A DNA stretch of 64,000 bases from Alphaproteobacteria bacterium (GTDB taxonomy: Bacteria > Pseudomonadota > Alphaproteobacteria > Acetobacterales > Acetobacteraceae), in assembly GCA_026400815.1 (NCBI GenBank), contig JAPLOI010000015.1, positions 1 to 64,000 on the forward strand, in the 5' to 3' direction. How positions within the stretch are numbered: position 1 is the first letter of the stretch; every line of letters starts with the position of its first letter. Positions 17,158 through 54,777 of the stretch are shown piece after piece. A program made the position numbers and the translations under genes. The notes below the pieces were generated by a model. The model saw only the letters and a list, made by a program, of their open reading frames with translations. It had not been told where the DNA came from and searched no databases.

Positions 17158-17658
17158 TCACACCGCGACGTATTTGTGGCGCTTGTAGCTGCCGAGGTTG
17201 AAGCCCTCGATGCGCAGCAGGGTGGTGGAGGCGTCACGCCGCGGCGAATGCAGCACGCCGGGCTCATACGCATAGGCCATGCCAGGGGTCAGCTTGTAGT
17301 CGCGGAGGCGCTTCACGCGGCCGGGCTCGTCCCCGTTCGGCTCGGCCACCTTCTCCCAATCGGTCATGATCGTCTCGCCCGTGGCCTGGCCGTAGATCGC
17401 CCAGGTGGGGCCGTGATCATGCGGCGCGCTGTCCTTGGCGCCATGGTAGCTGTGGGCGAGAATGGCGAACTTGTGGATCGGGTCCTCATAGATCACCTGC
17501 CGCTCCGGCCCATCCGCCTTGATGGTGGCGGCGACGAAAGCCTGGTCCTGCAATACCTCGCGCACCAGCTCGCAGACCTTCTGCCGGCCGCCGGCCCCGG
17601 GGTCGGCCGAAATCGCGGCGGCGCACGCCTTGGCAAAACTCTCCAGCGTGTGAGCCAT
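17158..17658 (-). CDS. Small cupin-fold (cysteine-dioxygenase-like) protein
   Basis: This is a 166-residue cytoplasmic protein with a cupin metal site. The first motif is around residues 75-100 (SAPHDHGPTWAIYGQATGET), with H-x-H histidines and a later Glu. The second motif is near residue 140 (EPGVLHSPRRD), providing the third histidine. It resembles thiol-dioxygenase-like cupins whose substrate is not established. It heads the dehydrogenase / reductase set; a promoter must lie in the repeat-filled gap 17659-17923. I cannot assign a reaction. Confidence 0.65.
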   Translation of the reverse strand: MAHTLESFAKACAAAISADPGAGGRQKVCELVREVLQDQAFVAATIKADGPERQVIYEDPIHKFAILAHSYHGAKDSAPHDHGPTWAIYGQATGETIMTDWEKVAEPNGDEPGRVKRLRDYKLTPGMAYAYEPGVLHSPRRDASTTLLRIEGFNLGSYKRHKYVAV

Positions 17659-17720
17659 GTCATTCCCTCCAGCAACGTCGTTGCAGCAGCCTAGCGCCGA
17701 ACGCGCGCGCGGGGAAGGAA

Positions 17721-17923
17721 GGGAAGGCCAGGGGCTTTGCCCCTGGACCCCACCAGGGACCTGAGGTCCCTGGACCCACATTTGTTCCGCCTTCGGCGGG
17801 AGGGGCCGACCCGGTCTGTGTCGCGCGCCGTGACGGCCCCTCCCGCCGAAGGCGGAAAAGGTCGAGGGGGTCTGGGGCCTAAGGCCCCAGCGGGTCCAGG
17901 GCAGAGCCCTGGCCTTGCTTGCC

Positions 17924-17925
<2 letters not shown>
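17721..17925. repeat. Multi-hairpin palindromic element, copy 1
   Basis: About 200 bases are built of nested hairpins in order. These are CCAGGGG/CCCCTGG, CCAGGGACC/GGTCCCTGG, a long stem whose left arm starts TTCCGCCTTCGGCGGGAGGG and whose right arm is its exact 24-base complement around a 25-base loop, then GGGGCCT/AGGCCCC and CCAGGGC/GCCCTGG. The outer ends AAGGCCAGGG and CCCTGGCCTT are mutually complementary. A second copy lies at 46797-46990. It fills the space between the ppdK stop and the cupin gene. Confidence 0.85.
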
Positions 17926-20605
<2,680 letters not shown>

Positions 20606-43318: not shown

Positions 43319-44365
<1,047 letters not shown>

Positions 44366-46008: not shown

Positions 46009-46770
46009 TCAGGCTCCCTTGAAGGCGGGCTTGCGCTTCTGGGCGAAGGCGAGCTTGCCCTCGGCGTGGTCGGCGGTGGTGAACAGGGCGGCCTGGGCGG
46101 TGCGTTCCCATTCCAGGGCGTCCGCCAGGCCGCGGGCGAGGATGCTGCGGGTCATGGCAATCGCCTCCGGGGCGCCCTCGGCGAACTTGGTGGCGCGTTC
46201 TAGGGCCTTTTCCAGGGCGGTGCCGTTGGGGGCGACGTGGTCAATCAGGCCGATGCGCAGGGCCTCCACCGCGTCCACCGGCTCTGCCGAGAAGAACATG
46301 TTGCGCGCCCTGCCCTCCCCGACCCTGCGCGGCAAGGTGTGCATCAGGCCGAAATCGGGGGCCAGGCCGACGCGGACGAAGGGGGTGAGGAACTTCGCGC
46401 CCTCGGCGGCCACGACGCAATCACACGCGATCGCCAAACCCACGCCGGCGCCGGCGGCCCAGCCCTCGACGGCTGACACGAACGGCTTGCCGCTCTCGAT
46501 GATGGCCTTCACCATCGCGTGGGTGATGCGAAACCGCTCCCGCCCCGCGGCGAAATCCGAGCTGTCCATGCCGCTGATGTCGCCGCCGGAGCAGAACTGG
46601 CCGCCAGCGCCGGTGATGACGACCGCGCGGACCGACTTGTCCTTCTCGGCGACCTCCAGCTCCTCAATGAAGCGGGCGCGCATCGCCATGCTCAAGGCAT
46701 TGCGCCTGGCGGGCTCGTTCATCTCCAGCACCAACGTCGCACCCTGGCGGGTGACCGTGAGGAGGCTCAT
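46009..46770 (-). CDS. Enoyl-CoA hydratase/isomerase
   Basis: The 253-residue crotonase-fold protein hydrates 2-enoyl-CoA or acts as an isomerase. The oxyanion-hole segments are AVVITGAGGQFCSGGDISGM and AVEGWAAGAGVGLAIACDCV. The downstream acidic site reads FVRVGLAPDFGLMHTLPRRV, where one of the two usual glutamates appears replaced by Asp. It starts 26 bases after the repeat element and its stop lies 1 base before the acyl-CoA dehydrogenase start, so the two are coupled. Confidence 0.87.
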   Translation of the reverse strand: MSLLTVTRQGATLVLEMNEPARRNALSMAMRARFIEELEVAEKDKSVRAVVITGAGGQFCSGGDISGMDSSDFAAGRERFRITHAMVKAIIESGKPFVSAVEGWAAGAGVGLAIACDCVVAAEGAKFLTPFVRVGLAPDFGLMHTLPRRVGEGRARNMFFSAEPVDAVEALRIGLIDHVAPNGTALEKALERATKFAEGAPEAIAMTRSILARGLADALEWERTAQAALFTTADHAEGKLAFAQKRKPAFKGA

Positions 46771-46796
46771 GCGCTTGGGTGCTCCCAGGTAAGAAA

Positions 46797-46990
46797 GGCC
46801 AGGGGCGCTGCCCCTGGACCCCGCCAGGGACCTGAGGTCCCTGGACCCACATTTGTTCCGCCTTCGGCGGGGAGGGGCCATCGAGGCGGTGGAGAGACCC
46901 GGGCGGCCCCTCCCCGCCGAAGGCGGAAAAGGTAAAGGGGTCTGGGGCCTAAGGCCCCAGCGGGTCCAGGGCAGAGCCCTGGCCTTGCTT
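46797..46990. repeat. Multi-hairpin palindromic element, copy 2
   Basis: This element is nearly identical to 17726-17920 in its outer hairpins. The long central stem starts TTCCGCCTTCGGCGGGGAGG and is a perfect 24-base duplex around an unrelated 25-base loop. Relative to copy 1 one arm has an extra G and the other an extra C, so pairing is kept. It lies between the acyl-CoA dehydrogenase stop and the enoyl-CoA hydratase start, in the same orientation relative to minus-strand genes as copy 1. Confidence 0.85.
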
Positions 46991-47011: not shown

Positions 47012-48082
47012 TCAGCCTTCGTCGCTGTCGACCGCCAGGGTGGCGAAGCGGGTGCGGTGGAGGGTGGCGGAGCCGTAGAGGTTGCAGAGGACCATGGCTT
47101 TGCGGAGGAAGAGGCCGGGGTCGGCTTCGTCGGTGTAGCCGATGCCGCCGTGGAGCTGGATGGCTTGGCGGCAGACAAGCATGCCGGAGTCTGACGCGCG
47201 GGCTTTGGCGCGGGAGATGGCGGCGAGGCGGGCGGGGCCGGTGAGGCCGTTATCCAGGGCGGCCGCGACGGATTCGACGCTGGCGCGGGAGAGGGAGACC
47301 TGGATCTTGAGGTCGGCGGCGCGGTGCTGGAGGGCCTGGAAGCTGCCGATGGGCTTGCCGAACTGGACGCGGGTTTTGAGGTAGTCGACCGTCATGGTGA
47401 AGACGCGGTCCATGACGCCGAGGAGGCTGGCGGCGGTGGCCAGGGCGGCTTCTTCCAGGGCTTCGGTGAGGTCGCCGGGAACGGGGGTGCAGGGGGCGTT
47501 TTCGAGCGAGAGGGTGCCGAAATTGCCGCCGTCTTGGGTGCGTTCGGTGGTCAGCGTCACGCCGGGGGCATCGCGTTCCACGAGGGCGAGGCCGTCCTTG
47601 CCGGAGACGAGGAAGGCGTCGGCGCCGGCGGCCTGGGGGATGAAGATCTTGCGGCCGTTGGCTGTTCCGCCGGCGGTGGTGGTGTCGCCGCGCGTGTCCA
47701 GCGTGTTCGGCCGTTCCTGCCAGGCGGGGAGGATGAGGCGTTCGCCGGTGAGGATGGCGGTGGCGTGGGGGGTGCCGGCCAGGGCGCGGGCGGCCATGGT
47801 GGCGGAGACGAGGGGTTCCGGGGCCAGGGCCGCGCCGACTTCCTCGGCGATGGCGCAGTATTCGGCCATGCCGAGGGCGGAGCCGCCGGCTTCCTCCGGC
47901 AGGCGCAGGCCGGGCCAGCCCATTTCGCACATCTGCTTCCAGACGGCGCGGTCGAAGCCGGGGTCCTCGAAGCGCAGGGCGCGGATGCGGCGCAGGTCAC
48001 CGGTGCGCGGGGCGAGGCCGGCGGCGCTGTCGCGGATGAGGCGGACGGATTCGGCGCGATCGTCGGAGGAAGCTGCGCTCAT
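47012..48082 (-). CDS. Acyl-CoA dehydrogenase (short, N-terminally divergent)
   Basis: This 356-residue acyl-CoA dehydrogenase homologue belongs to the group that pairs with a partner subunit. The N-terminal domain is weakly conserved, with PEEAGGSALGMAEYCAIAEE. The middle lacks a clear substrate loop. The C-terminal helical domain is typical: VDYLKTRVQFGKPIGSFQAL and CRQAIQLHGGIGYTDEADPG. It probably forms an alpha2-beta2 enzyme with the dehydrogenase at 44838. Confidence 0.83.
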   Translation of the reverse strand: MSAASSDDRAESVRLIRDSAAGLAPRTGDLRRIRALRFEDPGFDRAVWKQMCEMGWPGLRLPEEAGGSALGMAEYCAIAEEVGAALAPEPLVSATMAARALAGTPHATAILTGERLILPAWQERPNTLDTRGDTTTAGGTANGRKIFIPQAAGADAFLVSGKDGLALVERDAPGVTLTTERTQDGGNFGTLSLENAPCTPVPGDLTEALEEAALATAASLLGVMDRVFTMTVDYLKTRVQFGKPIGSFQALQHRAADLKIQVSLSRASVESVAAALDNGLTGPARLAAISRAKARASDSGMLVCRQAIQLHGGIGYTDEADPGLFLRKAMVLCNLYGSATLHRTRFATLAVDSDEG

Positions 48083-48104
48083 GGCGGGTACTTTCAGTAA
48101 GGTA

Positions 48105-48228
48105 GAGTCTTCTTTTTCTGAAGAAAAAGAAGCAAAAAGACTTTATGAATTTGCACCGAGGCCCAGTGTGGACGCTCGGTGCAAAGTCATAAAAGTTTTT
48201 TGGTTCTTTTTTTCAAAAAAGAACCGCT
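48105..48228. repeat. A/T-hairpin flanked repeat, copy 4
   Basis: The left hairpin is CTTCTTTTTCTGAAGAAAAAGAAG. The middle stem TTGCACCGAG/CTCGGTGCAA is unique to this copy. The right block AAAAGTTTTTTGG is followed by GGTTCTTTTTT/AAAAAAGAACC. It lies between the CoA-transferase B stop (48233) and the acyl-CoA dehydrogenase start (48082). Confidence 0.87.
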
Positions 48229-48232
48229 TGCT

Positions 48233-48892
48233 TTAGCCTTGGGTGTGGATCTCGGCCTCGGACTGGGCGCGGACCTGGTCCAGCGTGACGCCCGGGGCGA
48301 GTTCCACGACGACGAAGCCGCGCTCGGTGACATCGAAGACGCCGAGGTTGGTGATGACGCGCTTCACGGCGCCGAGGGCCGTGAGCGGGTAGGTGCACTT
48401 CTTGACCAGCTTCTTGCCGCCGGACTTCGTGCTGTGGTCCATGATGACCCACAGGCGCTTGGCACCCGCGGCGAGATCCATGGCGCCGCCGACGGCGGGG
48501 GCGGCATCGTTTTCACTGGTGGCCCAGTTGGCGATGTCGCCGTTCTCGGCCACTTCGAAGGCGCCGAGGACGCAGAGATCGAGATGGCCGCCGCGGATCA
48601 TGGCGAAGCTGTCGGCGTGGTGGACGAAGCTGCCGCCCTTGCGCAGGGTGACGTGCTGCTTGCCGGCGTTGATCAGCCAGGGGTCGCGCTGGTCTTCGGG
48701 GGGCTTGGGGCCCATGCCGAGGACGCCGTTCTCGGAGTGGAAGACCACTTCGCGGTCCAGCGGCACGTAGTCGGCGATGCCGGTGGGCATGCCGATGCCG
48801 AGGTTGACGTACCAGCCTTCGGGAATGTCCTGCGCGGCGCGCTCGGCCATCTGCAGACGGTCCCAGCCCTTGGCTTGAGGCTTCGCATCCAT
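48233..48892 (-). CDS. scoB: 3-oxoacid CoA-transferase subunit B
   Basis: The 219-residue subunit carries the catalytic glutamate in VVFHSENGVLGMGP. The N-terminus has WYVNLGIGMPTGIADYV; later come HHADSFAMIRGGHLDLCVLG and KRVITNLGVFDVTERG. With subunit A (66 bases upstream) it moves CoA between succinyl-CoA and a 3-oxo or similar acid. The symbol is by family; the acceptor acid could differ (3-oxoadipate, acetoacetate). Confidence 0.88.
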   Translation of the reverse strand: MDAKPQAKGWDRLQMAERAAQDIPEGWYVNLGIGMPTGIADYVPLDREVVFHSENGVLGMGPKPPEDQRDPWLINAGKQHVTLRKGGSFVHHADSFAMIRGGHLDLCVLGAFEVAENGDIANWATSENDAAPAVGGAMDLAAGAKRLWVIMDHSTKSGGKKLVKKCTYPLTALGAVKRVITNLGVFDVTERGFVVVELAPGVTLDQVRAQSEAEIHTQG

Positions 48893-54631: not shown

Positions 54632-54777
54632 GGAAAAGGAAGCGAAGGGGACACAGAGAGCACAGAGGGCCACAGAGAGCACAGAGGGGTGTTTTCGATC
54701 TGGCCGCCGGTTTCCTGGCTCCGCTTCTCTGTGACCCTCTGTGGTCCTCTGTGCTCTCTGTGACCGCTTCCCTTTGC
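54632..54777. repeat. Long CACAGAG-type inverted repeat
   Basis: Left-arm units CACAGAGAGCACAGAGG (repeated) are complemented by right-arm CCTCTGTGCTCTCTGTG units, extending outward through AAGGAAGCG/CGCTTCCCTTT. The arms are about 50 bases each, and the loop is about 33 bases around TTTTCGATCTGGCCGCC. It fills most of the ribF-ileS gap (54627-54943), which has no gene. This repeat type (CACAGAGG runs) is known from several unrelated bacterial phyla. Confidence 0.88.

Follow-up and report, generated by a model that had tools for sequence, protein, structure and literature searches.

Two copies of a palindromic element lie between minus-strand genes in the window, by which we mean the whole 64,000-nucleotide stretch of DNA analysed here. 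Copy 1, delimited by its end motifs, occupies positions 17724-17916. The gene upstream of it (17924..20605, minus strand; 893 aa), which we take to be pyruvate phosphate dikinase, has its stop 7 bases beyond the element. The best relatives of its protein are in Crenalkalicoccus, Acidiphilium and Acidocella, and presumably point to the family Acetobacteraceae. The gene downstream (17158..17658, minus strand; 166 aa) is without a Pfam match at 1e-5. Copy 2 (46795-46986) lies between an upstream acyl-CoA dehydrogenase gene (47012..48082, minus strand; PF00441 and PF02771) and a downstream gene assigned by Pfam as enoyl-CoA hydratase/isomerase (46009..46770, minus strand).

The element is about 200 bp in total and consists, in order, of hairpin A, hairpin B, a stem of about 24 bp with its loop, hairpin B' and hairpin A'. 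In copy 1 the left terminal motif AAGGCCAGGG (17724..17733; all parts are given without strand) overlaps the long form of hairpin A (17728..17746), which is followed by hairpin B (17753..17773), the left arm of the central 24-bp stem (17785..17808), a type I loop (17809..17833), the right arm (17834..17857), hairpin B' (17872..17890), the short form of hairpin A' (17896..17912) and the right terminal motif CCCTGGCCTT (17907..17916). Copy 2 is bounded by the same two motifs (46795..46804 and 46977..46986), which enclose hairpin A (46799..46817), hairpin B (46824..46844), the left stem arm (46856..46879), a type II loop reversed relative to the type reference (46880..46904), the right stem arm (46905..46928), hairpin B' (46942..46960) and hairpin A' (46966..46982). 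The end consensus is GGAAGnAAGGCCAGGG, taken from 67 of the 76 ends in 38 copies with a few mis-registered, and these shared terminal inverted repeats are those of a short non-coding element with inverted ends, as in a MITE.

Both copies contain a perfect 24-bp inverted repeat around a 25-base loop (17785-17857 and 46856-46928). The arms read GGCGGGAGGGG/CCCCTCCCGCC in copy 1 and GGCGGGGAGGGG/CCCCTCCCCGCC in copy 2, a compensated G/C insertion. A first-pass annotation of this DNA had described the two copies, their places and all of these stem features, and each could be read in the sequence. The 25-base loop is not universal, because the orthologue of the 46.8-kb copy in G008 (L212) has the same kind of long stem and a loop of only about 7 bases. 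Variation is also visible in the outer parts: L036, L039, L043 and L046 have extra outer hairpins that by eye form one more concentric layer. L029 and L179 each have, within a hairpin of the element, a short GC palindrome (about 20-28 nt, GTCGCGCGAAGGCGCGCGCC-like; variants in L040, L046 and L189), which looks like the insertion of one repeat into another.

When folded as minus-strand RNA the element is predicted to form a cloverleaf, in which A pairs with A' and the three arms are B, the long stem and B'. The predicted energies are -153.7 and -155.6 kcal/mol, with z scores of -10.5 for copy 1 and -11.6 for copy 2, and none of 200 shuffles folded as well. A search of the whole window against Rfam 15 gave no family above the gathering threshold except tRNA elsewhere in the window, and the best sub-threshold matches of copy 1 were mostly microRNA models. 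The consensus for an intrinsic terminator, a GC hairpin followed by a U tract, had no site at 17600-18000, the region of copy 1, and no promoter consensus was found at copy 1.

The first-pass annotation treated the element as a two-copy feature. Both copies are real, and they are members of a family that occupies at least 40 places in this genome, two of which (L044 and L045) are half elements; the count is a lower bound from 40 scored places among 134 candidates. Within 445 kb, in chunks picked for holding copies, the five-part plan turned up 26 times, against none in one first-order Markov copy; one of the 26 (L173) is probably of another kind. Matches were found in all nine genomes of the genus that were searched. 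Across 60 genomes, 25 including the window's own gave some match, all of them in the Acetobacteraceae, and the 24 genomes of other families gave none; in the 16 matching genomes outside the genus many matches are short and cover a single module. Full five-hairpin elements with unrelated stems are present in G012, G019, G028 and, partly masked, G022, and half or four-hairpin forms occur in other genomes. Copies in the relatives combine constant outer modules with a variable inner stem. A pattern for the A hairpin applied to 190 genomes of the class, only three of which (the window's own included) are of the same family, so that the survey says little about the family, matched 48 sites in this genome and one in each of three others, and its reversed control matched once; the three single sites are probably chance. 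A structural finder applied to 400 kb each of several sequences found two elements in G019 and none in the outgroup genome G049 or in Markov copies. A hairpin-cluster finder was uninformative, giving none in G019 and G049 against one in each Markov copy.

Other repeats lie close by. An AT-rich sister element at window positions 48083-48245 has a similar nested-hairpin plan, with AAGCAAG/CTTGCTT-type ends in several copies. It has real T tracts and one terminator-like site. Scoring of 40 places out of 373 candidates in this genome covered this sister family, and at the eight loci that were read the central stems differ and most pair. At L155 (G000:C53:14478-17813) a Y1/RAYT-like transposase gene lies beside GTAGCCCGCATC...GATGCGGGC repeats, which make up a separate REP system, and one GATGCGGGCTAC lies at window position 43991. 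A 17-bp inverted repeat with a 58-base spacer at 54671-54762, in a CACAGAGG-rich stretch, is not of the palindromic element family.

Using a codon-usage gene finder trained on this genome, we placed 28 of the 40 copies between co-directional genes and 11 between convergent ones; no copy had divergent neighbours, and one was undetermined. The co-directional copies are oriented with transcription in 15 cases and against it in 13. After filtering, 100 elements from at most 13 genomes gave 63 co-directional, 28 convergent, one divergent and eight undetermined placements. For comparison, in 21 stretches that were themselves chosen for holding elements, 50 of the 372 pairs of adjacent genes are divergent, and these account for 10,064 of the 55,200 intergenic bases. 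The 63 co-directional elements lie a median of 22 nt from the stop upstream and 50 nt from the start that follows, in agreement with the position between one stop and the next start that had been noted for the two window copies. Convergent gaps barely exceed the element itself, at 202-215 bases in five of six cases and 293 in the sixth.

A Pfam scan of 30 neighbouring proteins, comprising 14 complete co-directional pairs and two single proteins, allowed nine of the 14 pairs to be read as genes of the same pathway or commonly adjacent genes, with the families coming from Pfam and the pairing being our own judgement. These are acyl-CoA dehydrogenase/enoyl-CoA hydratase, two binding protein/permease pairs, permease/ABC ATPase, a CCG/LUD pair of lactate-utilisation type, DXP synthase/FtsJ-S4, RodZ-type/GcpE, phage hub/baseplate V and MoxR-type/DUF58. 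Many copies are therefore probably transcribed within operons.

Comparison of orthologous sites indicates how the copies were gained. In 23 of 24 family loci that have both genes, acyl-CoA dehydrogenase and enoyl-CoA hydratase are separated by about -7 to +44 nt, against 241 nt here; the loci come from 29 loci in 28 of 80 family genomes matching at 1e-60, five of the 29 being left out for having no dehydrogenase. The insertion at 46.8 kb is common to G001, G004, G007 and G008, a bare TGATG overlap is present in G003, G005 and G006, and in G002 the locus is split over contigs. This outgroup pattern shows that the 46.8-kb copy was gained by insertion between abutting or overlapping genes and not by deletion elsewhere. 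The filled site retains both the stop and the start that overlap in the empty site, so that a few target bases were probably duplicated; filled and empty sites are too diverged for the exact bases to be defined. The 17.7-kb site holds the same element in G001 and no element in G008, whilst G003 and G005 hold other hairpin elements with related ends, and G002 has another form with a changed right flank. Same-site occupancy was complete in five close species (54 of 54 comparisons filled), and more distant species gave 58 filled and 17 empty; the choice of loci skews these counts, as most were included because they contain an element and the two window loci supply all 17 empty sites.

Pairing of the central stem is maintained while its sequence changes. 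In the window's clade the inner arm is perfect in 58 of 70 copies (83%) and has one defect in the other 12, against 36% perfect when arms are swapped between copies. The mean number of defects in self and arm-swapped stems is 0.38 vs 10.5 for G003 and G006 together (13 copies), 0.71 vs 4.5 for G005 (seven copies) and 0.43 vs 12.1 for G019 (seven copies), the arm-swapped means of G003 with G006 and of G005 being inflated by unequal arm lengths. Covariation is strongest in the relatives: the seven copies in G019 have seven different stems of about 30 bp, and an alignment of all seven full-length copies (A1) has 98.6% of 211 cells paired, with two-sided change at 24 of 32 pairs and in 52 cells, values reached on every measure by none of 500 shuffles. 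For 13 of the 14 G003/G006 elements (A2), 96.4% of 411 cells are paired and two-sided change affects 12 of 34 pairs and 26 cells, and again no shuffle out of 500 reached these values. For the window's own clade (A3, 43 of 70 stems, restricted to the outer 15 pairs because MAFFT misplaced the G3/G4 difference) two-sided change was found in two pairs, which 103 of 500 shuffles reached, and in six cells, which none of 500 reached; five stems from G001, G004 and G007 had been picked as variants and so favour the count, and the formal covariation count is weak on one measure here. The covariation across copies and the scarcity of broken stems that the first-pass annotation anticipated are both borne out, the former in two other sets of species.

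The kinds of mismatch bear on whether the pairing is that of RNA. In the G019 and G003 with G006 sets together, 78 cells have two-sided change, seven are wobble pairs and 18 are unpaired; wobble thus accounts for two of 211 and five of 411 cells, or seven of 622, with both strands pooled. On the transcribed strand of the 100 filtered elements, G.U and A.C each account for five of 22 mismatches, and before unrelated stem-loops were removed for seven and six of 34. The filter dropped 17 of 117 structures, about 15 of them other stem-loops, some of the AT-rich sister family, and lost two true elements (L226 and L141). Rare wobble and equal counts of G.U and A.C weigh against RNA pairing being what mainly constrains the stems, although the numbers are small. 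Wobble asymmetry as a sign of RNA selection was set aside on the same small counts, which show none.

The loops had been described as unrelated between the two window copies, and this was wrong: they are two of three recurring types (I, II and III), each found in both orientations. Among 61 scorable copies of the 70, the orientation of the loop relative to layer B is even, at 13:14 for type I, 15:15 for type II and 3:1 for type III. We compared 27 orthologous pairs with both flanks matched, which come from 16 loci and are not independent, and found the loop the same in 16, inverted in six and replaced by another type in five. The loop inversions span five loci and the outer layers are unchanged at three of these; examples with the loop inverted and the outer layers in the same orientation are L011 (this genome) vs L177 (G001) and L009 vs L191 (G007). 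The outer layers also flip, with layer B inverted in 10 of 26 scorable pairs and layer A in nine of 27. G019, which is of another genus and assembled in nine contigs, shows both orientations of the loop against layer B (5:2 of seven copies), and one form of A lies on the B side in L240 and on the B' side in L243, L244 and L247. The flips are not an artefact of fragmented drafts alone, because G019 shows both orientations in so few contigs. In L186 (G004:C6:30000-39159) an element joins the flank of the C43 locus of G000 to the 17.9-kb flank; comparison with L169 and the window places the two loci on different contigs in G000, and the junction is either a recombination junction or a mis-join.

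We favour, with a little better than even confidence, the reading that the element is a MITE/REPIN-like interspersed palindromic repeat of the Acetobacteraceae whose arms are kept matched at the level of DNA. It would spread by insertion of symmetrical, hairpin-forming DNA and persist chiefly at landing sites immediately after a stop codon, we propose because insertions elsewhere damage genes or promoters. During replication or repair the arms would fold back and one would be copied from the other by template switching, so that the arms would stay complementary as the sequence drifts and the loop or an inner layer would now and then be inverted; exchange between copies would swap loop types. 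Since most copies probably lie within transcription units, transcripts would carry a very stable multi-hairpin RNA, which would likely act in the manner of a REP, by blocking 3' exonucleases or by weak attenuation between cistrons. Such an RNA role may be a side effect or a later use, and would not be needed for covariation.

According to PMC8604942, short inverted repeats that undergo template switching have their arms homogenised and their spacers inverted; PMC7202029 appears to be on the same subject. Two causes fit real covariation, selection for pairing and arm copying. The first-pass annotation had argued from the compensated change to selection on a folded structure; the pairing is indeed kept, while the inference fails because template switching gives the same pattern and spacer inversion is seen at orthologous sites. 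Arm matching with spacer inversion is the published signature of template switching, and wobble is rare and shows no bias to the transcribed strand; covariation alone is therefore no proof of RNA selection. Spacer inversions were seen at six of 22 orthologous pairs of the same loop type. That frequency seems too low to remove every single-arm mutation unless copying of an arm only is commoner, and selection for pairing may therefore also act. Selection, for instance for mobility, may still be required for so few stems to be broken across an entire genus. Further results run against the MITE/REPIN-like reading: five of the seven G005 stems have one defect, the complete occupancy in close species means that no recent jump was caught, and one filtered element, L154 in G002, is called between divergent genes.

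A cis-acting RNA (a terminator, processing site or mRNA stabiliser), in which selection on the transcribed multi-hairpin makes the compensatory changes, would account for the elements lying just behind stops and never between divergent genes in this genome, and for the very stable predicted fold. Hairpins between binding-protein and permease genes can set unequal expression, and two copies lie between such genes. There is also a precedent in hairpin clusters that act as terminators and nearly all lie within 80 bases of stop codons, in the portion of PMC8355165 that concerns them. This explanation is nevertheless unlikely in view of the scarce wobble and equal G.U and A.C counts given above, the missing terminator consensus at copy 1, the near-equal orientations with respect to transcription and the many copies that seem to be intra-operonic, where a strong terminator would be polar. 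We give similarly low weight to a DNA structure, a cruciform or single-strand hairpin, that is mobilised or inverted by a dedicated enzyme with pairing rather than sequence selected, somewhat like integron attC. The hypervariable yet complementary stems of G019, the near-even loop orientations, the constant outer modules around a variable inner stem and the position right behind stop codons all suit such an enzyme. Against it, none of the 30 scanned neighbour proteins matches a transposase or recombinase family in Pfam, the only Y1 transposase match in a PF01797 search adjoins other repeats, and a 25-base loop between 24-bp arms would be short for conventional invertases. Integron attC sites have conserved R boxes and extrahelical bases.

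Assembly chimeras, by which short-read drafts mis-join near-identical palindromes and create false flips and swaps on an ordinary repeat, are very improbable as the whole explanation. In keeping with such errors, the draft assemblies of G001, G002, G004 and G007 are in 360 to 520 contigs, several of which break off within an element; but both loop orientations are also present in the nine-contig G019, mis-joined whole reads do not make compensated stem changes, and both flanks match in all 27 orthologous pairs. A further possibility, which we hold only tentatively and think rather doubtful, is a structure-only replicator in which complementarity and not sequence is inherited. The central stem could then have almost any sequence provided that the arms match, and the nested layers would flip in place near or at equilibrium, through template switching in replication or a shape-reading enzyme.

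As to what might move the MITE/REPIN-like repeat, a cognate transposase was looked for and not found. This genome's one Y1 transposase match (PF01797) lies beside a different, GTAG-type repeat, and by eye none of the modules of our element is near it. A RAYT as mover in this genome was rejected for the same match, which adjoins GTAGCCCGCATC repeats. Any genes bounded by GGAAGnAAGGCC ends would be candidate movers.

The nearest known kinds are REPINs, REPs and MITEs, among which nested in-place flipping and hypervariable matched stems should be unusual. REPINs are REP doublets that form hairpins, are extragenic and present in many copies, and show compensatory changes that are called common in the relevant passages of PMC3116915. 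Our elements resemble them in having inverted conserved ends around a variable spacer that still pairs and in being extragenic and multicopy, and differ from the doublet described there in their five nested hairpins, their near-perfect central stem of 24-34 bp and the same-site inversion of layers. They differ also in the GTAG/CGTC foot, which was absent from the 67 aligned ends (GTAG was seen by eye only where a stop codon abuts), and in that no matching RAYT was found in this genome; the element thus lacks two tested REP/RAYT hallmarks here, the foot tetranucleotide and a flanked RAYT. REPs, in the part of PMC3733652 that describes their placement, lie mainly between co-directional or convergent genes downstream of coding regions, their termini often supplying the stop codon, and our elements are likewise placed behind coding regions in co-directional or convergent settings. 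The same part of that source regards the frequency of G-T pairing in REPs as an indication that they function as RNA, unlike the rare wobble of these elements, and reports CGTC repeats as missing from the Acetobacteraceae. The ERIC and YPAL MITEs are also similar, being about 100-200 bp long with stable long stem-loops, and YPAL has target duplications of 3-26 bp and filled and empty sites (PMC2229807, in part); in this comparison, by description only, the relevant portion of that account does not mention nested layers or flipping. Arm homogenisation with spacer inversion is what is described for template switching at inverted repeats, where the events covered in part of PMC8604942 occurred at ordinary yeast inverted repeats and here they would affect a whole bacterial repeat family at several nested levels. 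A description of these Acetobacteraceae elements was not found in open-licence PubMed Central text.

It is common to treat compensatory changes as proof that an RNA structure is under selection. In these repeats textbook covariation accompanies in-place inversion of the spacer, the mark of a mutational process that can give covariation without selection, and the family offers many orthologous loci on which selection for pairing and arm copying could be separated. It also shows that an insertion of 240 bp can enter between overlapping genes of an operon and leave both reading frames intact. If the replicator based on structure only were true, natural genomes would be a record of the rates of arm copying and inversion. 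For these bacteria, the element is likely to be a source of both rearrangements and assembly errors.
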